DNA of 64,000 nucleotides from assembly GCF_020621385.1 (NCBI RefSeq), contig NZ_JAESVA010000002.1:682001-746000 (forward strand). The letters run 5' to 3'. A program made the position numbers and the translations under genes. The stretch comes from Acidisoma cellulosilyticum. GTDB taxonomy: Bacteria; Pseudomonadota; Alphaproteobacteria; Acetobacterales; Acetobacteraceae. The notes beneath the pieces were generated by a model. It searched no databases, was not told where the DNA came from, and saw only the letters and a list, made by a program, of their open reading frames with translations. Positions 3,987-26,672 of this stretch are shown here, piece by piece. The number at the start of each line of letters is the position of its first letter. The first letter of the stretch is position 1.

Positions 3987-4061
3987 ATGCGCAAACCCAG
4001 TGTCGGTGAAAAATGGGCGGGAATGGCGGTCAAAGCGCAATTCGCAAGGGCTGATTTATGA
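3987..4061 (+). CDS. 24-residue leader peptide overlapping the portal gene
   Basis: A short ORF starts at ATG 3987 with a perfect AGGAGG ribosome-binding site at 3976-3981, five bases upstream. It codes a basic 24-residue peptide (MRKPSVGEKWAGMAVKAQF plus four residues). Its stop overlaps the portal start as ATGA, the typical arrangement of translational coupling, and the portal gene itself lacks an equally good site of its own. The peptide may be functional, or the act of translating it may load ribosomes onto the portal message. It is too short for family recognition. Confidence 0.55.
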   Translation: MRKPSVGEKWAGMAVKAQFARADL

Positions 4062-6178
4062 GCGCAAGCCTTGGGGATCTGGTCCCCGTCATCGACATTC
4101 AAGGCGATGCTGGCAGCGTTAAGCCGGAGGTCCGCCGCGCTGGCGGGCTGACGCTCGTTTCGAATGACGGGGATGTCGAAATTAATATCGGCCCCGAGGA
4201 AGACGATGGCTCCGATAGTTCGTCAGATTTCGGCGAAAACCTAGCCGAGACGCTTAATCACGGCATGCTGCAGCGTGTTGCCAACGAGTTGCTGACCGAT
4301 ATCGACGCCGATGATCGCAGCCGGACGGGCTGGCTGGATACGCGCAACGAGGGTTTATCGCTACTTGGGCTCGAAATTCAGGCGCCTGGCAGCAGCGCGG
4401 CCACAGGCGGCGCTCCCCTCGAAGGTATGAGCAAGGTCGTCTCGCCCCTGTTGCTCGGGGAAGTTCTGAAGGCCCAGGCTACGGCGCGCGGCGAGTTGCT
4501 ACCGTCCGACGGGCCGGTGCGGGTGATCGACGAGAGCACCTATGGCACCGGCGAGCGTGACGAAATTGCCGATGCCCTTGAAAAGGACATGAACACCTAC
4601 CTGACGCGGGTGGCGACGGAATATTACCCGGATACCGACCGGATGCTGTTCTATACGGCGTTCGGCGGCTCGGGCTTCAAGAAGATCTTCAACTGCCCGC
4701 TACGGCGCCGTCCGGTGTCGGAAAGCGTCGATGCCGCCGATCTGATCGTGAATGCTGGAGCGACCGATCTCGCCAATGCACGCCGTGTGACCCACCGCAT
4801 TCCGATGCGGGAATCGATGGTCAAGCGCATGCAACTGGTGGGCGCCTATCGGGATATCCCGCTTGGACAGGCCAATTATATGGCAAGCCAGGTGCAGGAG
4901 CGGCAGGCCCAGATCGAGGGTGTCGATCCAGTCTCCCAGCAGCCGCACGACCAGAACCGCACCATCTTCGAGACCTGCTGTGAACTGGACCTTGGAGAGG
5001 GTCCGGACGACATGCCGCTTCCCTACCGGGTGACGCTGGACAAAGATTCGTCGCAGATCCTCGAAGTGCGCCGGAACTGGCGCGAGGATGATGATCTCTA
5101 CATCGCCAAGAAGATGTATGTCCGCTATCCCTACATCGACGCCATCGGCATCTATGGGATCGGCCTGCTCCATCTGCTGGGCAATACGTCAAAGGCCATG
5201 ACCGCGGCGACGAGAGAGCTGCTCGACGCCGGCATGTTCGCCTGCTTTCCTGGTTTCCTCTATGGCGAGAATGCATCGCGCCAGACGACCATGGATATCC
5301 GGGTGGCGCCTGGCACCGGCGTCAAGATCGAGACCGGTGGTGGAAATATCAATGAACAGGTCATGGCGCTGCCCTATAAGGAGCCCTCTCCCGTCCTGAT
5401 GCAGCTTGTGCAGGCGCTCGGCTCCTCATCGAAGGAGCTTGCCGGATCCGCGGAGCTTCCGGTCGGCCAGAGCCAGGCGAATATGCCGGTTGGCACCATC
5501 ATGGCCATTTTGGATCAGGCGACCAAGCCGATGTCGGCGGTCCACAAGCGGCTGCACGCGGCCCAGGCTGAAGAATTTCAGATGCTGGTGGATCTCTTCC
5601 GCGAGGACCCCGAGGCATTCTGGCAGCATGGCCAGCGCGGCATTTACGAGTGGGACAAGGAAACCTTCATCCAGGCGCTTGATACCTTTGAACTCGCGCC
5701 GGTTTCAGACCCCAATGACCCGACGCGAACCCATCGCCTGATGAAGGCGCAGGCGCTGAAGACGCTCGCGCAGATGAACCCGTCAGGGTACGACATGAAC
5801 GCTATTGATTCGCATATCCTGCGGATGCTTGGTTTCTCAAATCCCCAGCAGTTCTTTGCCAAGCCTGGGCCGCCGCCGCCCAATCCGGCGCTGCTGACCC
5901 TGCAACTCAAGCAGCAAGAGTTGCAGCAGAAGGCTCAGATCGCTGAGCAGGCGAATGCCACGAAGCTGCAAGAGACCCAAATGCGCGCCCAAGAAGCGGC
6001 GGCCGATCGCGCTTCGGAAGAGCGCATCGAGGCGCAGCACATGCAGACAGATAGGATGCGGCTTGGGGCCGAACTCGCAACAGACGGCATCGGGGGTCTG
6101 CACAAGACTGCCGAGGTCCGGGCGCAAATGGATGCGGCCGCGAGCGAGCCGCCTGCAGGCCAAGGAGGCCAGTTCTGA
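4058..6178 (+). CDS. Portal protein (head-tail connector), podovirus type
   Basis: The 706-residue protein has the length and features of P22/podovirus-type portals. These include an acidic N terminus, a long mixed core with the GEVLKAQATARGELLP region, a conserved YPYIDAIGIYGIGLLHLLG segment, and a C-terminal third rich in Gln, Ala and Glu (residues about 610-680) predicted to be a coiled coil. Portals form dodecameric rings at one capsid vertex, through which terminase pumps DNA. The gene overlaps a 24-codon leader by four bases and the next basic-protein gene by one base. Assignment relies on length, order after terL and these patterns. Confidence 0.85.
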   Translation: MSASLGDLVPVIDIQGDAGSVKPEVRRAGGLTLVSNDGDVEINIGPEEDDGSDSSSDFGENLAETLNHGMLQRVANELLTDIDADDRSRTGWLDTRNEGLSLLGLEIQAPGSSAATGGAPLEGMSKVVSPLLLGEVLKAQATARGELLPSDGPVRVIDESTYGTGERDEIADALEKDMNTYLTRVATEYYPDTDRMLFYTAFGGSGFKKIFNCPLRRRPVSESVDAADLIVNAGATDLANARRVTHRIPMRESMVKRMQLVGAYRDIPLGQANYMASQVQERQAQIEGVDPVSQQPHDQNRTIFETCCELDLGEGPDDMPLPYRVTLDKDSSQILEVRRNWREDDDLYIAKKMYVRYPYIDAIGIYGIGLLHLLGNTSKAMTAATRELLDAGMFACFPGFLYGENASRQTTMDIRVAPGTGVKIETGGGNINEQVMALPYKEPSPVLMQLVQALGSSSKELAGSAELPVGQSQANMPVGTIMAILDQATKPMSAVHKRLHAAQAEEFQMLVDLFREDPEAFWQHGQRGIYEWDKETFIQALDTFELAPVSDPNDPTRTHRLMKAQALKTLAQMNPSGYDMNAIDSHILRMLGFSNPQQFFAKPGPPPPNPALLTLQLKQQELQQKAQIAEQANATKLQETQMRAQEAAADRASEERIEAQHMQTDRMRLGAELATDGIGGLHKTAEVRAQMDAAASEPPAGQGGQF

Positions 6179-9792: not shown

Positions 9793-10707
9793 ATGCCCAT
9801 TTCGCTTTCGGCCATCAAGAACGAACTCCTCCCCGGTCTGCGCGGCGTCGTCGGCAAGTACCAGATGATCCCGCGGATCTACGACAAGATCTTCGACGTC
9901 GGCCAGTCGGAGATGGCGCTCGAACGCACCACCGAGATGCGGTATCTCGGCCTCGCCCAGCTGAAGTCGGAAGGTGGTTCCACCGCGTTCGACAACGACG
10001 CAGGTGAGCGCCTGGTCTGGAACCAGGAGCACATGGAGCTTGGCCTGGGTTACGCGATCACCCGTAAGGCGATCGACGACAACCTCTATAAGCGCCAGTT
10101 CAACCCGTCGAATCTTGGTCTGATCGAGAGCTTCAATCAGACCAAGGAAATTTACGGCGCGAATTTCCTGAACACCGCCAATGTCACGAATGCCTATCTC
10201 GGTGGTGACGGCCAGCCGTTCTGCTCGACCGCGCATCCGATCGACGGTGGCACCTATGCCAATGCGCCGGCCACCGCTGTCGACCTGAACGAGAGCACGC
10301 TGCTCAATGCCCAGGTGCAGATTTCTTCGACCATCAAGGATCAGGCCGGGCTGCTGGTATGGGCTCGCGCACGCAAAGCGATTATCCCGCCGGCGCTGGA
10401 GCCCGTGATGATCCGTCTGCTGAAGACCGAGCTGCGGCCCGGCACGGCAGATAATGACGTGAATGCGATCCCGGGCACGGCTGGCGGCATCCCTGAAGGG
10501 TATGTCGTGAACCCGTTCCTCACGTCGCCGTATGCGTGGTTCCTGCTGACCGACATCAAGGGCATCCTGTATCTGCAGCGCATTCCCTTCGAGACGGACA
10601 TGCAGGTCGATTTCGTCACCGACAATCTGATGGTGAAGGGCTACGAGCGGTATAGCTTCGGCGGATACAATCCCCGGTCGCTCTATGGCAGCTTCCCGAC
10701 GAACTGA
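9793..10707 (+). CDS. Major capsid protein, Mu gpT-like
   Basis: The 304-residue protein opens with an LPGLRGVVGKYQ region and contains GLGYAITRKAIDDNLY, a long helix and the FCSTAHPIDGGTYAN segment. It ends in a conserved YSFGGYNPRSLYG. This set of features is typical of the Mu-like major head subunit (gpT) family with the HK97 fold. The gene has a GGGGGAGCTGAC ribosome-binding region and follows the scaffold gene, as expected. It should be the most abundant virion protein. Confidence in the capsid role is high; the gpT family name is from pattern memory. Confidence 0.85.
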   Translation: MPISLSAIKNELLPGLRGVVGKYQMIPRIYDKIFDVGQSEMALERTTEMRYLGLAQLKSEGGSTAFDNDAGERLVWNQEHMELGLGYAITRKAIDDNLYKRQFNPSNLGLIESFNQTKEIYGANFLNTANVTNAYLGGDGQPFCSTAHPIDGGTYANAPATAVDLNESTLLNAQVQISSTIKDQAGLLVWARARKAIIPPALEPVMIRLLKTELRPGTADNDVNAIPGTAGGIPEGYVVNPFLTSPYAWFLLTDIKGILYLQRIPFETDMQVDFVTDNLMVKGYERYSFGGYNPRSLYGSFPTN

Positions 10708-13265: not shown

Positions 13266-14360
13266 ATGGCCGAACCGACGACCCCACTAAAAGGCTTCAC
13301 GATCCCCAATACTGGGGATCAGGTTAATGCGTGGGGCCCTTCGGTAAACGGCAATTTCTCGCTCATAGATTCCCTTTTGGCTGGTGGGACTTTCGTTCCG
13401 GTGACGACTGGAACCGTCACACTGACGACGGCTCAGACGCAGTTTTTTCGCATCATTTTGACGGGATCATTGACGGGTCCGGTCACTGTCGTGGTTCCGC
13501 AGAAGGCCAGTTGTTATTCGTTTCAGGACACCACAACAAGAAATGGGTATTCTATATCGATCACCACCTCAGCCAGCGGCGGCAGAAATCAGAACATCGG
13601 AATGAATTTCTGTCAGGTCTTCACAGACAGCGCGAGCGTTTGGTTTCTCTCTCCGCCGGCTAATTTCGGTGACATGAACCCCAACGCTGGTCTTGGTGTT
13701 CCGCCGCTATATTTGGCTTGCAATGGGCAAGCCGTCAGCCGCACGACTTACCTGGATCTGTTCAATACGATTGGAGAAACCTACGGAAGTGGAGACGGCT
13801 CCACAACCTTCAATGTCCCTGACACCCGCGGGCGCAGCATATTCGGGCCCGACGCCGGCGCCGGCCGAGTGACATCGGCCTCCGGTTTTGGTAGCGCGAC
13901 AATCGCCACTTCAGGCGGCAGTGAACTGCTTCAGGCGCACACCCATGGCATCACTGACCCAGGGCATGCGCACACGGTCACTGATCCCGGTCATAATCAC
14001 ACCCAAAATCCCCATAACCACAACCTGACCGATCCCGAGCACACGCATGGGGTCAATGATATCGGCCACGTGCATACATATGGCAGCGTTGGGACGGCGG
14101 GATCGGGTCAGGCCGGAGCGGCAAATGCTTCAGCTGGCGGCCCAGGGACAACAGGCAGTTCTCTTACCGGAATATCCATCCAAAGCGCCCTAACGGGTAT
14201 CACCGTTAACAATGCAACTGCGACGAACAATTCGGCAATGACAGGGATCACCATTGTCTCGGCCGATACAGGAATAAGCGTCGATTCGACCGGCGGAGGC
14301 GGGTCTCAGAATATGCCGCCGGCAATTCTGATCCCCTGGATCATCTACGCGGGCCAGTGA
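13266..14360 (+). CDS. Tail-collar-domain fibre protein
   Basis: The 364-residue protein begins with the fibre-type start KGFTIPNTGDQVNAWGPSVN. The segment from about residue 138 (GDMNPNAG to FNVPDTRGRSIFGPD) is a clear phage tail-collar domain. It then runs into a His-rich region with HTHGITDPGHAHTVTDPGHNH and further HxH units, which in T4 short-fibre-like proteins bind metal inside a trimer. The C terminus has Thr/Ala/Asn-rich repeats and ends MPPAILIPWIIYAGQ, a usual ending for collar proteins. It probably forms a short fibre for receptor contact. Confidence 0.8.
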   Translation: MAEPTTPLKGFTIPNTGDQVNAWGPSVNGNFSLIDSLLAGGTFVPVTTGTVTLTTAQTQFFRIILTGSLTGPVTVVVPQKASCYSFQDTTTRNGYSISITTSASGGRNQNIGMNFCQVFTDSASVWFLSPPANFGDMNPNAGLGVPPLYLACNGQAVSRTTYLDLFNTIGETYGSGDGSTTFNVPDTRGRSIFGPDAGAGRVTSASGFGSATIATSGGSELLQAHTHGITDPGHAHTVTDPGHNHTQNPHNHNLTDPEHTHGVNDIGHVHTYGSVGTAGSGQAGAANASAGGPGTTGSSLTGISIQSALTGITVNNATATNNSAMTGITIVSADTGISVDSTGGGGSQNMPPAILIPWIIYAGQ

Positions 14361-14363
14361 TCC

Positions 14364-15077
14364 ATGTCTTACGATTATGCAGGATATCAGACCGCGCTTG
14401 TGACGCTGATGGCGACGACGACGGAAGACCCCTACTTCGTCACGATCCTGCCCGACATTATTGATTATGCCGAGCTCCGCATCTATCAAGAGCTCGATCT
14501 CCTCAATACCCGATTTCGGGATGCGACAAGCACCACGGCGATCGGAAGCCGACAGGTCTCTCTTCCCGCCACGCTCATCGTCTTAGAGACCTTGGCAATT
14601 ATCTCACCGGCTGGAAGCACAACCGCAACCTCCGGCGCGCGCCGGATATGCCAGGCAGTGACGCATGACTTCATCGACATGATCTATCCGTCTGATGGCG
14701 TCGCATATCAGGCAACCCCGCAGTTTTTTGCGATGCTGACCCAAACCACGGTCCTCCTCGGGCCTTGTCCAGATGGCGTCTATGGGATCGAGATCACCGG
14801 CACCTCGCGTCCAGCGCCACTGTCTGATGACAATACCACCACTATGCTGACAGAAATGCTTCCGGCTCTCTTCCTTGCCGCAAGCATGGTTTTTGCTTCC
14901 GGCTATCAGAAGAATTTCGGTTCTCAGGCCGACGATCCCAAGATGGCCACGTCTTGGGAGACGCAATACAAAGAGTTGATGCAATACGCAAAATCCGAAG
15001 AATTCCGCAAAAAGATGCAGAGTTCGTCCTGGACGTCGCAAATCAATCCAACCTCAGTCGACAAGCAGCGCGGCTGA
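14364..15077 (+). CDS. Tail adaptor protein, SU10-like
   Basis: The 237-residue protein follows a pattern common to phage adaptor proteins of the SU10/DUF6682 type. The N terminus carries YPDII-type residues (PDIIDYAELRIYQELDLL), then a strand-rich middle with GSRQVSLP and a PQFFAML segment, and a C-terminal helix with SWETQYKELMQYAKSEE. Such proteins form a ring between portal and nozzle. The gene starts three bases after the fibre stop and ends three bases before the nozzle gene. Family naming is from pattern memory; the connector role is well supported by order. Confidence 0.65.
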   Translation: MSYDYAGYQTALVTLMATTTEDPYFVTILPDIIDYAELRIYQELDLLNTRFRDATSTTAIGSRQVSLPATLIVLETLAIISPAGSTTATSGARRICQAVTHDFIDMIYPSDGVAYQATPQFFAMLTQTTVLLGPCPDGVYGIEITGTSRPAPLSDDNTTTMLTEMLPALFLAASMVFASGYQKNFGSQADDPKMATSWETQYKELMQYAKSEEFRKKMQSSSWTSQINPTSVDKQRG

Positions 15078-15080
15078 TCT

Positions 15081-17138
15081 ATGCCTCTGCAACAATTGAA
15101 AATCCGGCCGGGGATCAACACCCAGTTGCCGCCCATTCTCAATGAAGGAGGATGGTCTCAGTCCCAGCTCATTCGCTTCGAGAATGGCCAGCCGCAGGCT
15201 ATCGGCGGGTGGGTAAAATGGTGGGAAACGGAGCTTGACAGCCCTGCCCGCGCGATCCGGTCCTGGGCAGATTTCAACGGCACTGTGTGGACGGCGGTCG
15301 GCACGGATACCTCCGTCTATGTGATCGGAGATGGTCAACAGCTCAATATAACGCCGATAATCAATACAACAAATCCGACAGTGGATTTTTCCACTGTAGA
15401 AGGCAGTACCACCGTCACAATTCTTGACAATGCCGTTGGAGTCTTGAACGGAACTGCAGTCAATATTGTCACTCCCGTGGCAGTGGGGGGAATTGTCCTT
15501 CAAGGCCTCTATCAGATTACCATGCTAAATTTTGACTCATTCACGATCACGTCGTCTTCGAGTGCAACATCAACTGTGATCGATGGTGGTATCGTTCCTT
15601 CATTTACCACAATGTCAGGAAGTTTGACCGTTACGGTCACTCTTGAGAACCACGGCTACGCGGCGCAAGAGACTTTTGGAGTCACTGTTCCGGTGACGGT
15701 TGGAGGATTGACGCTTAATGGCGCTTATCTCATCGAATCAGTCGTAGATGATAACACATTCACCATTTCGGCTGTAAGCGCCGCGACGTCTTCTGCAACC
15801 GCATTGATGAACGGTGGAAATGCCCGATTCGTCTACTACAATGCCAACCAGTCGACATATGTGAGCTATGGTTATGGCATCGGTGGCTATGGGCTTGGTG
15901 GGTATGGCGAAGGCAGCATTTATGTGCCGCCCGCCGTCACTCAGGTTCCTCTCTGGACCTTCGATACCTGGGGTGAAACGCTGATCCTCTGCCAAGGAGG
16001 TGGCCCTATCTTTACATGGACGCCTGAGTCCGGGCAAACGCAGGCGCAATTGATTGCCGGTGCCCCGCCGATCAACGGCGGAATATTCGTCGCCATGCCT
16101 GAACTGACGCTTGTCGCATGGGGCTCATCGACATCGGGCATTCAAGAGCCATTGCTCGTCCAGTGGTCGACGATCGGCGACTACACGAATTGGATTCCAA
16201 CGGTAGAGAACCAGGCCGGCAGCCAGACGATCCCGAGCGGATCCAGGGTCGTCGGCGCCATCCAAGGGCCCCAGCAGGCTCTAATCTTTACCGACGTCGA
16301 TGTTTACTCGATGAACTATCTCGGGGGATCTGGTGAGGCATCCCTCGCTTGGGGCTTCATCAAGCTTGCCGACCACTGCGGGCTGATTGCCACCAGAGCG
16401 GTCTGCGTCTTGGATGAGACGGTCTTCTGGATCGCGGGGCCATCCGGCTTGCAGGACAGTCAGGGTCCATCCGGCGGTCGGTTCATGGTCTACAATGGCG
16501 GCGTGACGGAGCCACTGCCCTGCACGGTCTATGACACGATCTTTCAGGATCTCGACTGGGCGAATTCCGAAAAGATCGTCGCGGCCTCAAATGCCCTTTT
16601 TCACGAGGTTTCCTGGTTTTATCCATCGCTCTCAGGTGGATCTGGCGAATGCGACAGCTACGTCAAATTCAACAAGAAAGAGAGCACGTGGGATTTCGGC
16701 AAGCTTCCGCGCTGCGGATGGCAGGACTATTCAGCCGCAGGAAATCCGATAGGGGGCGGCTCGGACGGATATCTCTATGCCCATGAGGTCGGCATCACGG
16801 CCGACGGTGCTGATCTGAATTGGTCGGTCGCGAGCGGCGCCGTCATGATCGCCGAAGGCGACATGATGATGTTTGTCGATTGGCTTCTGCCAGAATTCTA
16901 CTGGGGCATCCGAGGGACGCCGACGACAGTCTCCCCGGTGACTTTGACCATCAGCGGCTATCGTTTTTCGAATGACGTAGCGCCCGTCACCCAGAGTTCG
17001 ATGACTTTCACGCAGTCCGGTAGCGGGTTCAGCAATCCAAGGGTACGCGGCCGCAACCTGAGCTTCACCTTCGGCGGACCGGGTTTCGCGCGCCTCGGCA
17101 GCATTCGGTATCGCGCTGCTCCTGATGGGAAATATTGA
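15081..17138 (+). CDS. Tail nozzle/stabilisation protein, P22 gp10 or SU10 nozzle type
   Basis: The 685-residue protein opens with LKIRPGINTQLPPI, then RFENGQPQAIGGWVKW, the signature opening of P22 gp10-like and SU10 nozzle proteins that plug the tail channel. Two repeated beta units follow at about residues 100-240 (both end in TFTIS-like strands with ATS residues), a Tyr/Gly-rich stretch (YGYGIGGYGLGGYGEG) near residue 270, and a propeller-like C-terminal half with several Trp-rich strands. The length agrees with nozzles carrying inserted domains. The insert at residues 100-240 has lower GC than the flanks. Confidence 0.75.
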   Translation: MPLQQLKIRPGINTQLPPILNEGGWSQSQLIRFENGQPQAIGGWVKWWETELDSPARAIRSWADFNGTVWTAVGTDTSVYVIGDGQQLNITPIINTTNPTVDFSTVEGSTTVTILDNAVGVLNGTAVNIVTPVAVGGIVLQGLYQITMLNFDSFTITSSSSATSTVIDGGIVPSFTTMSGSLTVTVTLENHGYAAQETFGVTVPVTVGGLTLNGAYLIESVVDDNTFTISAVSAATSSATALMNGGNARFVYYNANQSTYVSYGYGIGGYGLGGYGEGSIYVPPAVTQVPLWTFDTWGETLILCQGGGPIFTWTPESGQTQAQLIAGAPPINGGIFVAMPELTLVAWGSSTSGIQEPLLVQWSTIGDYTNWIPTVENQAGSQTIPSGSRVVGAIQGPQQALIFTDVDVYSMNYLGGSGEASLAWGFIKLADHCGLIATRAVCVLDETVFWIAGPSGLQDSQGPSGGRFMVYNGGVTEPLPCTVYDTIFQDLDWANSEKIVAASNALFHEVSWFYPSLSGGSGECDSYVKFNKKESTWDFGKLPRCGWQDYSAAGNPIGGGSDGYLYAHEVGITADGADLNWSVASGAVMIAEGDMMMFVDWLLPEFYWGIRGTPTTVSPVTLTISGYRFSNDVAPVTQSSMTFTQSGSGFSNPRVRGRNLSFTFGGPGFARLGSIRYRAAPDGKY

Positions 17139-17139
17139 T

Positions 17140-17403
17140 ATGGCCAGCGGTCCATCAGGAAACGGTTTGTCAGGAAGCGGCCTCTCAACCGTTGAGACGC
17201 TGCTCCGGCAGCTGATCCAGGCAGTGAACGGCCTGGGCACGGTGATTTCGAAAGGTTCATCGACGTCCACGACCACAGCGCTGAGCACCAATTCACCAAC
17301 GGCCACGGCCGGAGCGGCGACCCTTCCGGTCGGTCCTGTTGGCTTCATCACGTTCACCGACACCTCCGGCACCGTCCGCAAAATCCCCTATTACGGCGAC
17401 TGA
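17140..17403 (+). CDS. Small hypothetical phage protein
   Basis: An 87-residue protein. ATG 17140 is preferred because GATGGGA lies about nine bases upstream and it starts just after the nozzle stop; ATG 17125 would overlap that gene by 14 bases. The first third is Gly/Ser-rich, followed by a helix (TVETLLRQLIQAVNGLG), a Ser/Thr-rich linker and a strand pair ending in VRKIPYYGD. It could be a short coiled-coil trimerisation or linker element. No family is recognised. Confidence 0.55.
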   Translation: MASGPSGNGLSGSGLSTVETLLRQLIQAVNGLGTVISKGSSTSTTTALSTNSPTATAGAATLPVGPVGFITFTDTSGTVRKIPYYGD

Positions 17404-17405
17404 TC

Positions 17406-18431
17406 ATGGACACATCCGGGCCAATGGCGATCGACGAGGCAATGCACGTCGCCGGGCAGCCTATCCATGCCCCGCAGCCGAAGACGACTGCGCCCGCAGG
17501 AAATGGGATCGATTTCGGGGGCGGCCTCATTGATGCGCCAGTCCACGGCCGAACCGACAAGATCCCGCTGAATATCCCGTCGGGGTCCTATGTGCTGCCG
17601 GCGGATATCGTCTCGGCGATGGGGCAGGGCAACACACTGGCCGGCGCGCGGGCCATCCAGGAGGTCATGAAGGGCGCGCCGTATCATGGAACCTCCGGCC
17701 CTTATGGCGCGGGCCAGATTGCGATGAAGCACGGCGAGGGTCGGGGAATTCCAGATCCTCCAGCGCTCATGGCACCAGGCAAAACGGCCGCGGTCTCTTC
17801 GCCAGCGAGGGCGGCAGGCGGGCGGGCTCTGGTTCGCGCCGCCGGACTGATGATAGTCGCCACGCGGCCGCACGTCTCTGTGCTGTTTATCAAGCGTTCC
17901 GGTGTCGGCGATCATGGCGGCGAATGGTGCTTTCCCGGCGGTCATATCGATCCTGGTGAGACGCCGGCCCAGGCGGCCCTCCGCGAAACGCACGAGGAAG
18001 TAGGCTTCCCGGCCGGCGGTCATCCCGCGCTATGGACGCGCCGCGTTGCGGATGGGGTCGATTTTGCGACCTTTATCGTGAAGACGCCGCAGCCGTTTCG
18101 TCCGCGCCTCAACGGGGAACATACCGATGCCGTTTGGGCATCTCCATCTCACCCACCGATGCCGCTCCATCCTGGCTGTCTCGTCGCTCTCGACAAGCTG
18201 CGCGGCATGGTTGGCGATAAGGAAGGTGGCCAAACCGGATCGGCAGATAAAACAGAACTGGTCCCAATCATTGCAGCCGGCGGCGAATATATCCTGCGCC
18301 CTCATGAATGTCGCTGGTTGGGGAAAGGCGATCTTGAAAAAGGTCATCGTGCCCTTGATCAGTTTGTCATCGAGACCCGTGGCCATCTGCGCAAAACGCT
18401 CGGCAAGCTCAAACCTCCAAAGCGGGATTAG
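17406..18431 (+). CDS. Conserved phage protein split by an internal Nudix hydrolase domain
   Basis: In this 341-residue protein, residues 179-201 contain a nearly canonical Nudix box (GHIDPGETPAQAAL followed by RETHEEVGF), so the domain (about 147-265) should hydrolyse a nucleoside diphosphate linked to another moiety. Flanking it are two segments that resemble each other: residues 51-88 (KIPLNIPSGSYVLPADIV and GQGNTLAGARAI) and 284-325 (LVPIIAAGGEYILRP and GKGDLEKGHRALDQF). Both follow the plan 'glycine, strand, gate-like P, then G-x-G-(N/D)'. From memory, similar paired segments occur together in phage proteins lacking Nudix. The start is three bases after the upstream stop. The substrate is unknown. 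Confidence 0.7.
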   Translation: MDTSGPMAIDEAMHVAGQPIHAPQPKTTAPAGNGIDFGGGLIDAPVHGRTDKIPLNIPSGSYVLPADIVSAMGQGNTLAGARAIQEVMKGAPYHGTSGPYGAGQIAMKHGEGRGIPDPPALMAPGKTAAVSSPARAAGGRALVRAAGLMIVATRPHVSVLFIKRSGVGDHGGEWCFPGGHIDPGETPAQAALRETHEEVGFPAGGHPALWTRRVADGVDFATFIVKTPQPFRPRLNGEHTDAVWASPSHPPMPLHPGCLVALDKLRGMVGDKEGGQTGSADKTELVPIIAAGGEYILRPHECRWLGKGDLEKGHRALDQFVIETRGHLRKTLGKLKPPKRD

Positions 18432-18434
18432 CAG

Positions 18435-18920
18435 ATGACCATGAAAACGGATGCTGCAGTCAAGGTGCGCATTGGAAATCCGGGCGACTTTGATCAGATG
18501 ATGCCCTTTCTCATGCAAATGCACGCTGAGAATGGCATGGCCGCGATGGATCCCGATCTTGTTGCGCATTCACTCTTGCGCGGTCTTCATCGAGACAAGG
18601 CTGTTGTCGGTATCGTAGATGATGAAGGCAAGATTGCCGCATCGGTCGGTCTTTTTGTGGGGCGCTGGTGGTATTCCTATGATTCCCATCTCGAAGACTT
18701 CTGGAACTACGTCGATCCGGACTACCGGAAACATCACATAGCCCGTCCGGTCATCGAATTTGCCAAGCGCGCCGCTGATAATATCGGCGTCCCGTTGCTG
18801 ATGGGCGTCACGAGCAATGAGCGCACGGCTGCCAAGGTCAGATTGTATGAGCGGCAGCTTCCATTTGTCGGGGCTGCATTTCGATATGTTCCGGACGTGA
18901 AGGAGGCTGCTTGTGGGTAA
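18435..18920 (+). CDS. GNAT-family N-acetyltransferase
   Basis: The 161-residue protein has the GNAT order. An N-terminal strand and helix (VRIGNPGDFDQMMPFLMQMH) are followed by strands VVGIVDDEGKIAASVGLFV, then a conserved YVDPDYRKHHIARPVIEFAKRAA helix corresponding to the acetyl-CoA-binding motif A, and a C-terminal strand with RLYERQLPFVGAAFRYV. The usual Q/R-x-x-G-x-G/A loop is degenerate (YRKHHIA). Its substrate is unknown. The gene lies between the Nudix protein and a giant ejection-type protein and overlaps the latter by eight bases, so it is co-expressed with virion genes. Confidence 0.7.
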   Translation: MTMKTDAAVKVRIGNPGDFDQMMPFLMQMHAENGMAAMDPDLVAHSLLRGLHRDKAVVGIVDDEGKIAASVGLFVGRWWYSYDSHLEDFWNYVDPDYRKHHIARPVIEFAKRAADNIGVPLLMGVTSNERTAAKVRLYERQLPFVGAAFRYVPDVKEAACG

Positions 18921-21900
18921 GGGTAGCGGCGGCAATACAACAACCTCAACTACGACGCCAAATCCTGCGGCGTTGGCTCAATACACGAACGTCAGTAATC
19001 AGGCGAACACGACTGCCTCAAACCCCTATTATTACTACACGGGAGACCAAGTCGCAGGCCTGAACAGCGACCAGCTATCCGGCATTGGGTCGATCGGCAA
19101 TCTCGCTTCGGCGATGGAGAATCCCAGCAATACCTATGGGATGGCTTCGCCTTATATTGGCTCTTCTGCCGGCATGACGACGGATGCGGCAAATACGTAT
19201 GGCAGCCTCGGAGATTCATTGGCATCTCTGGAAAACCCAAGCAATACCTATGGGCAGGCAACGCCGTACTATAATGCAGCCTCGTCTCTGATTTCTGCTG
19301 GTTCTTCGCCGATCACGTCGAGCGATATCAACCAGTATATGAACCCGTATCTCTCTCAGGTTGGTCAAACAACTTCGAATGAGATGAACCAGAACAATGC
19401 TATCCAGCAGCAGCAGCTTCTGGGCAGCGCCGCAGCGTCCGGTGCGCTCGGCGGCAACCGGGTGGGTCTGGCACAATCCTCGCTCGCCAATCAGCAGGAT
19501 CTTGCCGAGAATGCGACCTTGGCCAACATCAATAGCCAGGGTTACACCTCCGCGCTCGGCGCCGCGCAGACGCAGAATTCGCAAATGCTCCAGGCAGGCA
19601 GCCTTGATAGCCAGCTGGGCCAGACTGCGGAGAATTCTGCACTTTCGGGGTTGGAAGCACCTTTCAGCGCCGCCAGCACCATGGGTTCCGGCTTGCTCAG
19701 TTCCGGATCGCAAATGGGTAATCTTGGGTCGCTGAACCAAAGCGCCTCTACCAGCGCCCTGGATGCCGGTATGACCGGCGCTCAGTCCCAGCTGACGGCC
19801 GGATCGACCGAGCAGACGCAGCAGCAGAACGCGCTTAACGCCGCGTATTCGCAATGGCTTGGCAGTGTCCAATACCCCTACCAGGACACCGACTATCTAG
19901 CCGGAATCCAGAGCAGCATCGGATCGCTTATGGGTGGGGACAGCAGCACCACCGGCCCGAGCCCGAACCCTTATTCCGAGACGGCTGGTGGTCTTCTTGG
20001 CGTGGCGGGTCTTATCGGTGGGACTGGAGGTTTTGGAGCCAAGGGCTGGCTCACTGGCCTTCTCAAGCGCGGCGGCAGGGTTGGGCGAGCTACCGGCGGA
20101 GCGACCGCAGGCGTCTCGGGCCTGACGGGGCAGGACGAATTCGGCACGACAGATAATGCCGGTTATATTGGCCAGATGCCGCAACTGACCCATGGTCAGG
20201 GCGCGCCGCAAGCGCCGCAGGGTGGGCAAGGAAGCCAACAGAAGATCGCTGGCTTTTCCTCGATCCCCGATCTGGTCAGTTATCTGAACGGAGCCAAGCC
20301 GAGCGCAAGCGGTTCAGGCGACACGGGTGGCTTTTCCACAACTCCCTTTACCACTGGCTTTCAGACCGAGAAGCGTGGCGGCCCAATAGCGCGGCGTGAT
20401 GGCGGTGGCGAGGTGATGGGCGCGCCCCCCGAAGCGCCGAGCGCTGAATCCATGGACGACTATCAGCTTCTGTCGCAACTCGCGCCCGGCGCGGCGATGC
20501 AGAAGATCCAATATGATGCGCCGCAGGGTGTCTATAGGCGTGGTGGCCAAATCTCCGGCTTTGCCAGCGGCGGCACGACCGGATCACAGGGCATGCAGGG
20601 CGTTTCCGGTATGACGCTGGTCAATCCCGCGGAGGAGACCAGCGGGATCAACTATGGCGGTTCCAATGCCGCTGGCACATGGAGCGGGGCCACACTTCCG
20701 GCCGCGCCGCAGACCAGTGGCATCTCCATGCCGACCGGTCAGAACAAATCCTATACCACACCGACGACGAGCGGCTTGTCCATTCCGACATCGAACACCG
20801 GCGGCAATTATGCGGCCGTGACCGGAACGGGATCGGGTCAGGCCATCAACCCGTCAACCGGTGTCCCAGATAACTATTCAGCGCAAATTTTTGCTACATC
20901 GCCTTACTATATCAGCGGCACGACATCATCTGGTCTGACGGGTGGCCAGAGTAATGCCGGAACGCCGGCCAATTCGACAAGTGTCAGTAATTCCACACTG
21001 AATCAGATCCTTGCCGACCTCAATCAGACTTCCAGCTCGAAAACGAGCATGCCGACAACCGCTGATTATCTGAACGATCGCGGTCTGCGCCGCGGCGGTC
21101 GCGTGGGTTTTGCCGACGGTGGCGACGCGGGCGGCGACGGCGATCCGGCGATGATTCCGACCGGCCAAACAAATGTCCGCGGGCAGATGATCTATGCGCC
21201 AGCGCCAGTCGCTCCAACGACACCACCATCGCCGCCGCAAGCGGGTTTGGCCGGATTGGCAAATTCAACCTCTTCTGCATCTCCTGCGCCTTCTTCCACA
21301 TCGACACCGCCTCAACAGGCTGGTGTTGCCAGTCTCGCCAATCCACCTCCGGGTGCACCAGCGCCTACCCCTGCGGCCGCCGCCGCGGCACCGAGTGGAT
21401 CTGCATCGCTACCGGCGAACATGCCGGGAGATGCCACACAGGCAGCCAATCCGCCCGCGCCGTTCACACCGACGGCAGGTGGATTCAATGCGGCGCCCGG
21501 CGCACCGCCCGCATCCGGCCCGTCGCCTAGTCCGGGTGGTTTCAACGCGGTGCCAACCGTGCCGCGTGGTGTGCGCGACAACAACCCGCTGAACCTGGAC
21601 TTTTCTCAGGGGCAGGCGGGCCTCGATCCCAATGCGCCGACCGATGGGCAGGAGGCGCGCTTCCAGACACCGACCCTCGGTATTGCTGCAGCCACCCACC
21701 AGCTTCTCACTTATCAATCCCAGGGCGTGAATACGGTTTCCGGGGTTGTAGGCAAATGGACGGCCGGCAATGCCTCACCGCAATACCTCCAGGCTGTGTC
21801 GAGTGCTCTGGGCGTGAAGCCGACTGATCCCATCGACGTTTCGGATCCGGTGACAATGCAGAAGATCGTGTCTGCCATGATCCCCTTCGAAACGCCGAAT

Positions 21901-23532
21901 GGTGCCGACCCGAAAACGATCTCGGATGGCGTGCAGCTCGGACTATCGACATATAAGCGGCCGGGCGGCGCGCAGTACGCTCAGGCCGGAAATGTCGCCT
22001 CAGATGCGTCGTATGGCGGCGCGAACGGTGGCGGACCATCGCAGGGCGGCTTCTATTCGCCATTCACGCCACCGTCGCAGATGGTGTCGGCAGCCGATGC
22101 GGCAAATCAGCCCATCTCCACACCAAACTCTTCTCCAACGACCGGCCTGGAAAAGATGGAGGAAAGCCCCTGGATGGCACTCGCCAATGCCGGATTCGGG
22201 ATGATGTCCAGCGCGTCTCCGTTCTTCGGTGTCAATATCGGTCAGGGTATGCTCGATGGCAGCCAGTATGCCCAGAGCATGCTTGGTCAACAACGGGCTC
22301 GTCAGGGCATGCAGTTTGATCAAGGAAATAAGCAGACTCAGAACAACCTCGTGCAACGCAGTCAGGGTCTGCAAGGCGGCGCCGGCATGGAAGGCGCGCA
22401 AGGAAACGCTGTGGCCGGACTGAACGCGCTGTCAAACTTGCCGCCGCTCATGGGTGCGGCGGCGGTCGGTGCGCCTGGCGCTGCCTCGACGCTTAACCTT
22501 GCAGGCATCAAGACGCCTCAGGTCGCCCTTCCTGGTGCCACCCCTGTCGCAGGTATGGGATCTCCCGGCGGTGGTTCGGCACCATCAGGAGGATCGGCGA
22601 GCGCGCCTGCCGGAGACCCCAACCAGATGCTGCCGCCCGCGACGATCGGCAGCATGTCCTTTCCGGCCCAATCGCCAATGGATCGCATGAATTCGATGTC
22701 TATCTATACGGGTATGGGCGGTGTCGTCGGCAATGCGGCGAGCAATTATTATAATCAAGCTAAGGACGCCGTCAGCACGGGTGGTTTCGTTAACCAATTC
22801 GGGCAGAAGGTTAATCTTGCTGGCGCGGTCGGCGCAGGCGCGCAGGCCACATCCGTGCAGGGCCAAGTCACGCAAGAGGCGTCGCAGTGGAGCAATATGC
22901 ATGAAGAAATGCAGGGCACTGTCACTTCCCTTACACAGATTCACGAATTGGCCAATGCGGCGAACGAAGCGCCTCCGAGCAAGTTCCAGTCCACGATAGC
23001 CGGCGCGGCGTCGACCCTGACTGGCGTTGCTCAGTCCCTTGGCATTCCCGTCAGCCAGAACGTGACCGATTATGCCTCGGCATCTGACCTCATGAAGAAG
23101 ATCAACACCCAGCTTGCGGGCAACATCGCTCGTTCCTGGGGAGACAAGGCATTTGCCGCGCTGCAGACCGTTCAGAGCGCTGTTCCAAGCGGCAATATGT
23201 CTTCGCCGCAGTCCTTTGCGCAGGTCACGCGCAGTGTCGGGCAGCAGCTTCAACTGCAGCAGGATCTTTATGGCTACGGTGTCCAAAACCGGCAGGCGCA
23301 GCAAGCGCAAGATCCGTCCAATCCCTATGGCTGGGAAGATCAGTTCTTCCAGTCGCATCCGCCGCAGATGTACGCCAGCCGTGTCAATCCGCTTCCGTTG
23401 CCGGCATCCGGCGGCAAGGTTGATGCGGGTCAGCTGAAGCCCGGCTTTAATTACACGGTCAACGGCCGCGTCGGGCAATGGACGGGGTCTGGCTTTGCTG
23501 GCGTCGATGCCCTCGGAAACGCCGGACAATGA
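18913..23532 (+). CDS. Giant internal virion protein with murein-hydrolase-like segment and RRGG motifs
   Basis: The 1539-residue protein starts at GTG 18913 behind a perfect AGGAGG (18901-18906). The first 450 residues are Gln/Ser/Ala-rich with repeated units (MENPSNTYG and LENPSNTYG). Four glycine motifs follow: KRGGRVGRATGG, EKRGGPIARRDGGG, YRRGGQISGFASGG and LRRGGRVGFADGG. After a Pro-rich linker, residues about 884-1017 (RGVRDNNPLNLDF ... GIAAATHQLLTYQ ... VVGKWTAGNASPQYL) match the pattern of phage P5-type peptidoglycan-cleaving domains. The C terminus is helical. An ejected, wall-piercing internal protein is the best reading. Confidence 0.7.
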   Translation: MGKGSGGNTTTSTTTPNPAALAQYTNVSNQANTTASNPYYYYTGDQVAGLNSDQLSGIGSIGNLASAMENPSNTYGMASPYIGSSAGMTTDAANTYGSLGDSLASLENPSNTYGQATPYYNAASSLISAGSSPITSSDINQYMNPYLSQVGQTTSNEMNQNNAIQQQQLLGSAAASGALGGNRVGLAQSSLANQQDLAENATLANINSQGYTSALGAAQTQNSQMLQAGSLDSQLGQTAENSALSGLEAPFSAASTMGSGLLSSGSQMGNLGSLNQSASTSALDAGMTGAQSQLTAGSTEQTQQQNALNAAYSQWLGSVQYPYQDTDYLAGIQSSIGSLMGGDSSTTGPSPNPYSETAGGLLGVAGLIGGTGGFGAKGWLTGLLKRGGRVGRATGGATAGVSGLTGQDEFGTTDNAGYIGQMPQLTHGQGAPQAPQGGQGSQQKIAGFSSIPDLVSYLNGAKPSASGSGDTGGFSTTPFTTGFQTEKRGGPIARRDGGGEVMGAPPEAPSAESMDDYQLLSQLAPGAAMQKIQYDAPQGVYRRGGQISGFASGGTTGSQGMQGVSGMTLVNPAEETSGINYGGSNAAGTWSGATLPAAPQTSGISMPTGQNKSYTTPTTSGLSIPTSNTGGNYAAVTGTGSGQAINPSTGVPDNYSAQIFATSPYYISGTTSSGLTGGQSNAGTPANSTSVSNSTLNQILADLNQTSSSKTSMPTTADYLNDRGLRRGGRVGFADGGDAGGDGDPAMIPTGQTNVRGQMIYAPAPVAPTTPPSPPQAGLAGLANSTSSASPAPSSTSTPPQQAGVASLANPPPGAPAPTPAAAAAAPSGSASLPANMPGDATQAANPPAPFTPTAGGFNAAPGAPPASGPSPSPGGFNAVPTVPRGVRDNNPLNLDFSQGQAGLDPNAPTDGQEARFQTPTLGIAAATHQLLTYQSQGVNTVSGVVGKWTAGNASPQYLQAVSSALGVKPTDPIDVSDPVTMQKIVSAMIPFETPNGADPKTISDGVQLGLSTYKRPGGAQYAQAGNVASDASYGGANGGGPSQGGFYSPFTPPSQMVSAADAANQPISTPNSSPTTGLEKMEESPWMALANAGFGMMSSASPFFGVNIGQGMLDGSQYAQSMLGQQRARQGMQFDQGNKQTQNNLVQRSQGLQGGAGMEGAQGNAVAGLNALSNLPPLMGAAAVGAPGAASTLNLAGIKTPQVALPGATPVAGMGSPGGGSAPSGGSASAPAGDPNQMLPPATIGSMSFPAQSPMDRMNSMSIYTGMGGVVGNAASNYYNQAKDAVSTGGFVNQFGQKVNLAGAVGAGAQATSVQGQVTQEASQWSNMHEEMQGTVTSLTQIHELANAANEAPPSKFQSTIAGAASTLTGVAQSLGIPVSQNVTDYASASDLMKKINTQLAGNIARSWGDKAFAALQTVQSAVPSGNMSSPQSFAQVTRSVGQQLQLQQDLYGYGVQNRQAQQAQDPSNPYGWEDQFFQSHPPQMYASRVNPLPLPASGGKVDAGQLKPGFNYTVNGRVGQWTGSGFAGVDALGNAGQ

Positions 23533-26500
23533 CATCAGCTCCCTCTCTAACCGTCGACGACTTCATGAAGGTGGCGACGCCCCAGATTGGCGTTGGTTCT
23601 TCGCCGCCCGTGCAGTCTGGCCCGACGGTCAATGACTTCATGAAAGCTGGCACGCCAGCACCGGGCATCGAACCTTCTTCCGAGCCCTCGGCCACGCCAC
23701 CGCAGCCGCCGGCCTCCGGCGGCCCAACGGTGGAGGATTTCATGAAGGTCGCTACTCCTCAACCAGGGTCGTCGCCAGAGCCCGACAGCGGGGCAGTCTC
23801 ATCGCCTGGTATTCTGCACAGTCTGGCGGCCGGCGCGGCATCCGGCGTGCAGGATGTGGCGGATGCTGCGAAGTGGATGTGGAACAATGCCAGCGCACCC
23901 GGGCTGGCTGAGGTCGAAGGGGGCAATCTCAACACGGCCGCCACTCCGGATATGATGCTGCCCAAGAAGACTGCGCCGGCGCAGATTCCCGTCGTGTCGA
24001 AATTCGTCCAGCAGAACCAGCCTCAGACGCTCGGCGAGAAGATGGCCTACGGCGCGGGCGCGATGCTGCCGTTTGCTGCGAGCCAGTTCATTCCCGGCGC
24101 TGACGCCGCGAGCGAGGCCACCGCACTGAGCAAGCTGTATTCGGCTGCCAGGGGTGCTGGTGCCTTGGCCGGGTCCGGCGCGGCATCTGGTGCGGGCGGC
24201 TTCGAAGGCCAGCGGCTGGGCCAGATGGTGGGCGGTGACATGGGTGGCGAGATCGGCGGAACGATCGGTTCTCTTGTCGGTGGCATCCTTCCCCTGGCTG
24301 GCGGCTATTCTGCCGCCAAGGCGGCGGATGCGATTGGCGATTTCGTGCCGCTAACCACCGGCGCCAAGATGAAGGGAGCTTCCCGGGTTCTGGCCAATGC
24401 CGATCCCGATCTGACGGCCGCGCGCGCCAATGTATCGGCAAGGACGGCGCCCGGTGCCACCATCCAAGCCGGCGGTCGTAGCGTGCCCCTCGGCCCAAAT
24501 GGTGAGATCGTGGATGGGGCCACGCCGACGGCCGTGCAGATGGCCGGGTCAACGCCCCTCGCCCGGGTGGCCGAGGGTCTCAAAGCGCGCGGATATGGCG
24601 ATTCTCTCGTCGAGGCTGAGCAGAATCAGGAAGCGGCCCGGGCGAATGCGGTCCGTGGCCTGGCACCGGATAATGCAGACACCTCGTCTCTTGGGGCTTT
24701 TTTTCGACAGGCCCAAGGCGATCAGGACGCCCTGTATCAACGCCAATTGGCCGGTGAGAACCAGACCAGAGATGCGGCACTTGCGACCCAGCCGGGGGCG
24801 GCCGGCGAGATCCAGCCCTATCAGGCCGGTCAGCAGCTCCAAGGTGCGCTGAGCGCTGGCGACCAGGCGCGGAAGCGCGCGACGGACACGCTGTTCAATG
24901 CCCTGCGTCAGAAGAACCCGGTGATCGACGTTACTCCTCTGAAGCAATCCGCCTCGGACATCGAAAGCGGCATCTCCTCATTGCGGGCCGGAGATGTTTC
25001 TTCAGCAGAGCGGGAGCTTTACAAGCGGGCACAGGCCTTGGGTTCGGCCCCGAACACAACCTGGGGGCAGGTCCAGCAGCTCCGTAGCGAGGTCGGAAAC
25101 GCAATCACCGACAGCACTGTGCAATATGGCGCGGCAAGCCCCGCGACGCTGCGGCTATCTCGGCTAAAGAGCGGAATTGATGATGCGACGGCAAGCGCCG
25201 TTGACCGTCTCCCGTCCCAAGATCCGGCGTGGGCCGCACTTCAGTCTCAAGTGGTAGGAACCATCCCCTCGCAAGCGTCCGTCGATGAGGCTAGAATGGG
25301 CCTCGAACGGATGGCGGCGACAGGCAGGGCGAGTGAGAACAGTACACGCACGGCTACAGGAGCGGATGGCTCACCTTCGGGATCTCCTGGATCAGGTGGA
25401 TTACCGCAAGAAGGTGGAGAGCGTTCTGGAGTTGGAACGGCTGGCGCTCGGCCGGGAGGATATGGTGGAGCTGAGCCTGATGCGCTTAATGCGCAAGGAG
25501 CTTGGGATTCCTCCGACGCCGCCACCTACTCAGACGCCCTAGCCCAACACGCGGCGCGCAAGCGGCTCTATTCCAATCCACAGATTGGGCACATTCTCGC
25601 AAAAGCACCGGGAGGCAATCTGGCCTTGGCGCCAGAATCCGTCGTCAAGGAAGCGGTGCCAACTGGGCCGTCCGGTGGTGTCATGGCGCGGTCCATCGCG
25701 GCTACTGCGCAAGACGACCCTAATATCATGAACTACTACCAGTCGATTGTCGGCCTCGGCCTCCGCAATTCCGTTGTTCGCGATGGCCAAGTGAATCGAA
25801 GTCTTCTAGCGGCTTGGACGCGTAATCATCAGGCGCTTCTCTCGGAGCTACCAGAAACTGCGCGACGACTGACGTCGATCGACTCCGCGCAGCAGTTCGT
25901 AGATGAAGCTGCAAAAAGTGCGGCTGTAGCTTCAGACGTTTTCAAGACCAAAGCCATCTCATCGCTTATGGGTGGCGACGACCCCTCTGTTTCCATGCAG
26001 CATCTTTTGAATGGAACAACGGCTGATGCGGCTAAGTTTTTGAATTATATCCGCCGCGATCCGGCGGCTCATGCCGGCGCTCAGAAGGCCATGGCGGACA
26101 ATTTAGCCAACTCTCTCCTATCGCCTAAGGCGGCAGGGTCAGCGGGTGACGAGGGCGTTCAGATTTCTCGTGTTCGCGGCCTGCTTCGTGAGCCATCAAA
26201 ATTGGCCATCATAAGGTCAATAATTGGACCGCAGGCGCCTCAAACACTTCGCCGCATCCTCGACGATTACGACCTCTACAATACGCCGGCCATGAGCCGG
26301 CTAGGCGCGGCAGGCTCGCGCACGACGCCGCTGGCTCATGCGGCCAACAACATCGGACAGCCTACGACCACGCTCGGCCGCATGATGCAGGAATTGTCCC
26401 GCCCGGTCGTCAATACCGTCCTGGCTGCCGCCACCCACCCGGCGGCAGCGGTGCCGACCTTTCTAGCATCGACCGCCGGGCAGGCCATCATCTCCAAAAG

Positions 26501-26672
26501 CCGCGAGGCAGTTGCGCAGATCGTTGCCCATGCTCTGGTCGATCCCAAGTTGTTCATGAAGCTGACGGCGCCCGTTCCCCGCGAGGCCGGCGCGGAAGCC
26601 CGGTTCGTGAAACAATTGCGCAGCATGCTCGCCGCAGCCGCGCTTCAAACGTCTCCTTCCTCTCAAAACTGA
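23529..26672 (+). CDS. Large internal virion (DNA ejection) protein with three N-terminal DFMK repeats
   Basis: The 1047-residue protein starts at ATG 23529, overlapping the previous stop (ATGA). Its N terminus holds three copies of a short unit, TVDDFMK, TVNDFMK and TVEDFMK (residues 8-14, 33-39, 67-73), each followed by a TP-rich linker. Then come Ala/Gly-rich hydrophobic stretches around residues 100-280 that could insert into membranes (GGEIGGTIGSLVGGILPLAG), a long helical region, and a C-terminal hydrophobic helix. This resembles the large ejection proteins of podoviruses that form the trans-envelope channel. No enzymatic motif is recognised. The last gene before the spike. Confidence 0.65.
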   Translation: MTSAPSLTVDDFMKVATPQIGVGSSPPVQSGPTVNDFMKAGTPAPGIEPSSEPSATPPQPPASGGPTVEDFMKVATPQPGSSPEPDSGAVSSPGILHSLAAGAASGVQDVADAAKWMWNNASAPGLAEVEGGNLNTAATPDMMLPKKTAPAQIPVVSKFVQQNQPQTLGEKMAYGAGAMLPFAASQFIPGADAASEATALSKLYSAARGAGALAGSGAASGAGGFEGQRLGQMVGGDMGGEIGGTIGSLVGGILPLAGGYSAAKAADAIGDFVPLTTGAKMKGASRVLANADPDLTAARANVSARTAPGATIQAGGRSVPLGPNGEIVDGATPTAVQMAGSTPLARVAEGLKARGYGDSLVEAEQNQEAARANAVRGLAPDNADTSSLGAFFRQAQGDQDALYQRQLAGENQTRDAALATQPGAAGEIQPYQAGQQLQGALSAGDQARKRATDTLFNALRQKNPVIDVTPLKQSASDIESGISSLRAGDVSSAERELYKRAQALGSAPNTTWGQVQQLRSEVGNAITDSTVQYGAASPATLRLSRLKSGIDDATASAVDRLPSQDPAWAALQSQVVGTIPSQASVDEARMGLERMAATGRASENSTRTATGADGSPSGSPGSGGLPQEGGERSGVGTAGARPGGYGGAEPDALNAQGAWDSSDAATYSDALAQHAARKRLYSNPQIGHILAKAPGGNLALAPESVVKEAVPTGPSGGVMARSIAATAQDDPNIMNYYQSIVGLGLRNSVVRDGQVNRSLLAAWTRNHQALLSELPETARRLTSIDSAQQFVDEAAKSAAVASDVFKTKAISSLMGGDDPSVSMQHLLNGTTADAAKFLNYIRRDPAAHAGAQKAMADNLANSLLSPKAAGSAGDEGVQISRVRGLLREPSKLAIIRSIIGPQAPQTLRRILDDYDLYNTPAMSRLGAAGSRTTPLAHAANNIGQPTTTLGRMMQELSRPVVNTVLAAATHPAAAVPTFLASTAGQAIISKSREAVAQIVAHALVDPKLFMKLTAPVPREAGAEARFVKQLRSMLAAAALQTSPSSQN

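Follow-up and report, generated by a model that had tools for sequence, protein, structure and literature searches.

What purpose might a Nudix hydrolase serve when it is lodged inside a protein encoded among the virion genes of a prophage? The question is raised by a 341-residue protein with an intact open reading frame (17406..18431, + strand) in the window, as the whole 64,000-nucleotide stretch of Acidisoma cellulosilyticum DNA analyzed here is called. A sequence-only reading had described it as a canonical Nudix domain set between two similar segments that adjoin each other in Nudix-less phage proteins, and both the Pfam NUDIX match and the homologues bear this out: only six of the 172 distinct homologues listed (the window protein and L131-L135) match a Nudix HMM, and the other 166 do not.

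The paired domain and its Nudix insert

The two segments that give the protein its paired character are encoded at 17523..17675 (segment 1, residues 40-90, the first half of the paired domain) and 18255..18431 (segment 2, residues 284-341, the second half), both on the + strand and both delimited by alignment A1, from which L106 was excluded on account of its wrong end, and by the AlphaFold (AF2) model. The mutual likeness of residues 51-88 and 284-325, already remarked upon from the letters, stands: their local alignment scores 43, whereas none of 2000 shuffles scores higher than 32, and among the distinct homologues listed the pair outscores all 100 shuffles in 152 of 172 proteins and fails to do so in 20. 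Both segments of the window protein carry the conserved patterns GRTD...SYVxPAD...GxGN and GGE...G.G...GH..LD..V (alignments A1 and A5, and HMMs); an N-terminal module of the MPLKxGxS type, present in six of the eight other A1 proteins, is absent from it.

An AlphaFold model of the Nudix-free homologue L114, built from a 28-row alignment (mean pLDDT 88, pTM 0.77), is predicted to run strand-strand-helix-helix, two times over. By this prediction, both segments belong to a single domain with two pseudo-repeated halves, whose packing against each other we infer from the pTM of this model. In the model of the window protein (26 rows, mean pLDDT 74), the same elements are kept at high pLDDT on either side of a confidently predicted Nudix domain, half 1 comprising putative strands at 52-58 and 62-64 and helices at 66-72 and 77-88, and half 2 strands at 285-291 and 295-297 and helices at 299-305 and 310-334; with a pTM of only 0.49, this model does not fix the placement of the Nudix domain relative to the paired domain. 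The latter has no match in Pfam (P0001), no sequence relatives in the PDB up to E 1 and no fold relatives there below E 1.2, and its three matches at E <0.001 in a viral library are all uncharacterized phage proteins.

Segment 1 is followed by a low-confidence, probably flexible linker (17676..17831, +; residues 91-142, with pLDDT below 50 at 91-139) and by the Nudix domain itself (17832..18209, +; residues 143-268), whose limits come from PF00293, the HMM envelope, AF2 and Foldseek. The region passes the PF00293 threshold that the sequence-only reading had proposed as a check (residues 147-249, E 8e-17, with 61.9 bits where 21.1 would suffice). The Nudix box, defined as GX5EX7REUXEEXGU, is found by pattern match at 17940..18008 (+), residues 179-201, exactly where it had been placed before; its sequence is GHIDPGETPAQAALRETHEEVGF, in which a U position holds Thr195 and no bulky aliphatic residue, and the box is intact in nine of nine full-length paired-Nudix proteins checked, the window protein included. 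Ten-residue means of pLDDT lie between 81 and 96 across the domain, dipping to 69 at residues 211-220, and a Foldseek search with the predicted model, topped by 6uuf at E 2.8e-9, points to a Nudix fold.

As to the substrate, the Foldseek matches are scattered over Ap4A hydrolase, MutT, RppH/YmfB, Dcp2, CoA and NrtR Nudix structures, and the sequence and structure neighbors taken together include MutT-type and CTP pyrophosphohydrolase-type enzymes. Fifteen NCBIfam models match the domain at E values up to 0.01 and none attains its curated cut-off (37.9 against 169 for the bacterial NudE model), so that assignment through family models (NudE, MutT, RppH, CoA, ADPRase) was dropped. A proline about 15 residues past the box marks Nudix enzymes acting on ADP-ribose, a tyrosine 16-18 residues past it those acting on ApnA, and the spacing of a CoA motif those of the CoA type. 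Read by eye, residues 215-219 (A, D, G, V, D) bear neither of the first two marks, and the stretch preceding FPGG is one residue too short for the CoA spacing. PADLOC proposes a single candidate model, PDC-S07, across the Nudix region. GC content gave no hint that the domain was captured recently: of 514 same-size stretches from 11 other phage genes, 61 attain the 64.6% GC of the Nudix stretch and 249 attain its GC3.

Prophage setting and conserved gene order

The paired gene sits in an integrated, podovirus-type prophage, whose genes are given here with their coordinates on the + strand. From the left, these encode an Sf6-like terminase small subunit (668..1324; PF20901), the terminase large subunit (2301..3863; phrog_38), the portal protein (4058..6178; phrog_1216), the major capsid protein (9793..10707; phrog_371), a tail collar or fiber protein (13266..14360; PF07484), a head-tail adaptor (14364..15077; PF24175 SU10 adaptor, E 3.2e-17) and a 685-aa virion structural protein (15081..17138; phrog_3287) that is probably of the nozzle/stabilization type, and whose homologue in MW202675.1 is annotated as a phage stabilization protein. 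A 92-aa protein of no family (17125..17403), which tblastn matches weakly in L125 and in L130, precedes the paired gene. Directly 3' of the latter lies a 161-aa GNAT acetyltransferase gene (18435..18920; PF13508 at 27.5 bits, cut-off 27; PF00583 at 26.3 bits, cut-off 20.7; phrog_1249), the product of which gave no match in PADLOC. It is followed by the gene for a 1539-aa internal virion/ejection-type protein with a transglycosylase-like region (18913..23532), which has zero Pfam matches and is recognized through PHROGs (phrog_873, endolysin; phrog_2276, tape measure; phrog_4287, DNA ejection protein; phrog_7182, tail injection transglycosylase). A 1064-aa protein of no family comes next (23478..26672), with one weak tblastn match, in L126, and by its position it is possibly a second ejection-module protein. 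The sequence-only reading had placed the paired gene in the middle of tail genes; it does lie among virion genes, more precisely at the boundary between the nozzle-type tail genes and the internal virion (ejection-type) genes.

A GH19-type lysin (30297..30878; PF00182) is encoded close to the right end of the prophage, and host-type genes, for histidyl-tRNA synthetase and adenylosuccinate synthetase, start near 33458. On the left, a tyrosine integrase (PF00589, E 1.7e-15) is found on the same contig about 28 kb before the start of the window, with RusA and a DNA methylase encoded in between. A search for an attachment repeat gave 15-base matches only. One ARAGORN prediction, a tRNA-Asp at 32421-32517 (anticodon atc), is missing from Rfam, which lists the other two tRNAs, and it is possibly a false call.

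Homologues were gathered by scans that kept the best 80 of at least 600 pattern matches (three scans) or the best 80 of 113 (one scan). At least 303 ORFs carry both segments in order, of which 172 are distinct (the scan loci plus L005, L010 and the window), once loci sampled repeatedly from one contig are collapsed and the truncated L136/L222 is left out; seven ORFs with a single segment were dropped, and one with its segments out of order was excluded from later counts. The flanks are contiguous in Nudix-less relatives, as the sequence-only reading had it, for example in MW202675.1 and in two loci of Rhizobium lusitanum (L124, L125), and the linker measures at most 60 aa in 154 of the 172 distinct homologues listed and is longer in 18. 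The other long linkers that were read (L076, L096-L098, L100-L103, L106, L120, L202 and L298) are low-complexity or unrecognized. L137 and L223-L225 were rejected as Nudix carriers, with a 30% identity full-query match and a loop rich in Ala, Gly, Ser and Asn (read in L098, L103 and L137).

The Manatee Spring phage record MW202675.1 encodes a 193-aa, Nudix-free homologue in the same gene order, and is the only entry of the annotated phage collection with a near-full-length homologue; MW202825.1 and MW202545.1 hold partial ones, and all three are labelled Manatee Spring and are not isolates. L010 (genome G047) and L126 (a contig titled Acetobacteraceae) are 100% identical across 3231 bases. In the source genome no second copy of the paired-segment gene was found, and three weaker matches elsewhere cover the Nudix part and a little of the stretch preceding it. 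Within the host's family P0001 was matched in 3 of 299 genomes, the match in G141 being to the N-terminal module only.

The surroundings of the paired gene are strongly conserved. With two GNAT queries, a GNAT gene was found at most 3 kb downstream in 136 of the 137 distinct listed homologues that have at least 1.5 kb of 3' DNA, the sole exception being L127. In a tblastn search of 34 selected loci with 16 proteins of the window, the adaptor, the 685-aa protein, the paired gene, the GNAT and the ejection protein were all present, and ordered alike, in 22, and L114, L115 and L119 lacked only the ejection-protein match. There was no GNAT match in L220, no adaptor match in L128 and neither an adaptor nor a 685-aa match in L126, and L127 showed the paired gene only; L010, L116, L129 and L222 are short loci or stop too close by, and L012 is a plain Nudix locus without pairing. 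Among 13 chosen related records, the large terminase was matched in 11, fragments being scored as misses, and the capsid protein is 66-72% identical in all 13; the capsid protein was rejected as a lineage marker, being equally similar with and without Nudix.

Some loci deserve mention in their own right. The 90,582-bp contig of L045 and L046 (IMGVR_UViG_3300010965_000005) holds the same genes twice, inverted, and looks like an assembly artefact. L115 (JASGCE010000001.1) holds this phage module in a contig binned as Candidatus Paceibacterota, perhaps a mis-binned phage. In genome G438 (L212, L216), L212 encodes a 474-aa protein that matches segment 1 only and may represent a single half of the domain; this protein adjoins one that appears ejection-like by eye.

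Recurrence of the insertion and other enzyme domains

A Nudix domain occupies the same site in at least nine environmental viral contigs besides the window (L131-L136, L386, L392 and L424). Three of these (L386, L392 and L424) were new from a scan with the Nudix domain only, in which six of the best 80 of 177 relatives lie in paired proteins. In the two-segment scan, six Nudix-bearing contigs top the at least 580 relatives ranked by likeness to the whole window protein, so that Nudix carriers appear as a small minority. Among the matches listed, the Nudix domain of the window is closest to L365 and L366 (56% identical) and L367 (51%), all in other large ORFs; its identity to the paired Nudix domains listed is 38-47%, and 49% over 70 residues of a truncated one.

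How many times the insertion arose was approached through trees. In a 57-row Nudix tree, the window groups with L365 and L367 (support 99/93), and the eight environmental paired Nudix domains form a separate clade at 100/98; a single origin has an AU p of 0.062, and window and environmental paired domains are united in 0% of 200 bootstrap trees. This tree left out most host-genome Nudix rows, near-duplicates, hits with fewer than about 105 matched residues, and the long or truncated rows L222, L277, L287, L288 and L289. With 11 long-branch or distant rows removed, chosen after the tree was seen, the resulting 46-row tree gives an AU p of 0.0098 and again 0% of 200 bootstrap trees, and a 40-row tree that predates the sampling of the closest relatives gives 0.545. 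For the 685-aa gene, the window falls within a starred set that also comprises six Nudix-less loci, five alphaproteobacterial and one betaproteobacterial, and the tree yields p 0.027 for a single Nudix origin, or 0.085 in a variant with one long-branch partner removed and three Nudix loci added. A segments-only tree does not decide (AU p 0.358), and whole-gene transfer between phages may be compatible with that test. The AU tests thus disagree, with p from 0.0098 to 0.545, and the insertion probably arose at least two separate times, as judged from these alignments.

Other enzyme types are seen on the same scaffold. The Pfam cargo scan covered 18 paired proteins picked for length or inserts, together with the window protein and P0001, a choice from which no cargo rate can be derived. 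An ART-like motif stands N-terminal to segment 1 in 4 of the 172 distinct homologues listed, and PF18760 (ART-PolyVal) is matched in L120, L207 and L364, each time below the Pfam cut-off. In L131, a Zeta_toxin kinase above cut-off lies N-terminal to the pair and the ART-like part is seen as a motif only; in L188, an inorganic pyrophosphatase (InPase) does so at E 4e-51 (Pfam). Stretches in L226, L200, L177, L139 and L207 look methyltransferase-like or ParB-like by sequence reading only, and Pfam gave no match on them. The 958-aa ORF at L131:3946-6819 (IMGVR_UViG_3300028800_000209) combines an ART-like motif, the Zeta_toxin kinase and a paired domain with a Nudix that likewise exceeds its cut-off, which gives up to three enzyme types on a single carrier.

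The nearest Nudix relatives mostly belong to large ORFs: among the best 80 of 177, 78 have stop-to-stop ORFs measuring at least 250 aa, and an iterated search, which misses weak cases, identifies at least 15 as DUF2213-like. A 741-aa ORF at L382:3504-5726 appears by eye to be a MuF-type head protein with a Nudix and a GNAT-like C-terminus, of which Pfam confirms the Nudix only. The 1489-aa protein of Tunturiibacter phage Tunturi_5 (gp273; L277:2652-7121), annotated as MutT/NUDIX, has ART-like and GNAT-like regions by eye and adjoins a minor head protein.

Possible roles and known systems

The reading that we prefer, at a probability of about 0.48, is that of a cargo-bearing protein of the virion or ejection module whose Nudix domain acts early in infection, where packaging, ejection, timing and substrate class are what we infer. 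The paired gene would encode a conserved virion/ejection-module component of a podovirus-type prophage, with the loop between the halves bearing a Nudix hydrolase on flexible linkers. The paired domain would be the carrier, packaged into the particle together with the adjoining internal virion proteins and entering the cell with, or just ahead of, the phage DNA; at the onset of infection, the Nudix domain would cleave a nucleoside-diphosphate-X compound of the host to the benefit of the phage, the likeliest target being a signal or stress nucleotide of the ADP-ribose or dinucleotide type. A carrier of exchangeable cargo offers the simplest account of a fixed place in the virion/ejection block combined with variable parts that are in part enzymes regarded as packaged and injected in sections of PMC5512222 and PMC9503650, and packaging is favored because Nudix fusions are taken as a sign of it in a section of the latter.

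More tentatively, and with some doubt, the paired domain could be a general cargo adaptor of the podovirus ejection apparatus, whose N-terminal arm and loop have, repeatedly and each on its own, accepted unrelated enzymes in independent events: the loop would have taken up Nudix, probably twice, and the arm ART-like, Zeta kinase and inorganic pyrophosphatase domains, with the GNAT belonging to the same delivery unit. If so, a widespread and almost uncultured phage group would inject a changeable enzyme payload. Should delivery occur, the paired domain could serve as a marker by which large collections of environmental phages are searched for injected enzymes not yet recognized; a phage Nudix hydrolase would also acquire a testable host-facing role at the first moments of infection.

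These readings have to be weighed against others. It is unlikely that the late-made protein simply stays in the producer cell, where the Nudix domain would tune the NTP or ADP-ribose pool in MutT- or NudE-like fashion and the paired domain would tether it to the assembly site. The location of the gene among late virion genes and the MutT-type and CTP pyrophosphohydrolase-type neighbors of the domain are consistent with such a role, yet it leaves unexplained the ART-like and InPase domains of relatives, kinds for which PMC5512222 predicts packaging and injection; as the term Zeta toxin is absent from that paper, the objection gains nothing from the Zeta kinase of L131. The late position of the gene would suit assembly or scaffolding roles too, and the loop may simply tolerate inserts, since low-complexity stretches fill it in several homologues. 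An assembly or maturation factor, such as a scaffold or chaperone of ejection proteins, in which the Nudix would be a ligand-binding or tolerated insert with no need for catalysis, would accommodate both these long loops and the 166 of 172 listed homologues that do without Nudix; we consider it improbable, as the box is intact in all nine proteins checked, including two lineages that probably gained Nudix separately.

Slightly more improbable still is an action on RNA 5' ends, by decapping or in RppH-like manner, that would alter host mRNA stability early in infection. RppH, YmfB and Dcp2 do appear among the Foldseek matches, and decapping by Nudix enzymes has been reported from large eukaryotic DNA viruses, according to a section of PMC9503650. 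Against it, the best of the NCBIfam RNA pyrophosphohydrolase models reaches 28.1 bits, far under its cut-off of 116, and Dcp2 and RppH are outranked in Foldseek by RenU, an Ap4A hydrolase and a MutT-type enzyme. A frameshift, a chimeric assembly or a chance similarity has a negligible likelihood: the gene family is rare within the host's family, with matches in 3 of 299 genomes, but the flanks are in frame, the Pfam threshold is passed and the same architecture recurs in at least nine other contigs.

T4 NudE is a stand-alone enzyme, with which the window protein shares the fact of being a phage Nudix hydrolase. Polyvalent proteins come closer. As described by Iyer et al. in 2017 (PMC5512222), these are multidomain proteins encoded near late genes, with ART, InPase and other domains, and predicted to be packaged and injected; NUDIX is mentioned there once, in the InPase section. 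The paired homologues L131, L188, L120, L207 and L364 resemble them, and the window gene also lies among late virion genes; the window protein differs in having a single recognized enzyme domain, NUDIX, where two or more disparate effector domains in one polypeptide define the class. GNAT has likewise been reported in polyvalent proteins (PMC7824862). A GNAT beside internal virion proteins, which could correspond to T7 gp13, is described in a section of PMC6775973, and the T7-type internal virion block thus resembles the window in that a GNAT gene adjoins those for internal virion proteins; it differs in that the same section mentions no counterpart of the paired-segment protein. For podovirus structural genes, the terms acetyltransferase, ADP-ribos and Nudix are absent from the main text of PMC10386132, as far as it was available, and a word search of titles and abstract starts in open-licence PMC papers found no description of a paired-domain carrier, which is weak evidence of absence.

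The nearest parallel is offered by fusions of T4 NudE-like Nudix domains to MuF, portal or capsid-processing peptidase proteins, for which packaging is suggested in a section of PMC9503650; here, too, a phage Nudix is carried on a virion-gene product, with packaging and injection predicted. The Nudix domain of the window is 41-43% identical to that of the Bcep1/BcepNY3 portal proteins, and the phrog_15528 portal match, which spans residues 132-248, corresponds to the Nudix of such a portal-Nudix fusion, the portal itself being encoded by a separate gene; no portal, MuF or head-protease carrier was detected in the ORF by Pfam or PHROGs, which match the Nudix region only. Proposals of packaged phage enzymes usually start from a fusion to an established head protein, for example MuF or portal, and the carriers of the known Nudix fusions are portal, MuF, head-protease or DUF2213-type proteins, with the Nudix terminal in the Bcep and PdC23-type examples. 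In the window protein, in contrast, the Nudix is internal, set between the halves of an unnamed two-half domain encoded alongside the ejection genes, which suggests that a carrier of a second type exists next to podovirus-type ejection genes.
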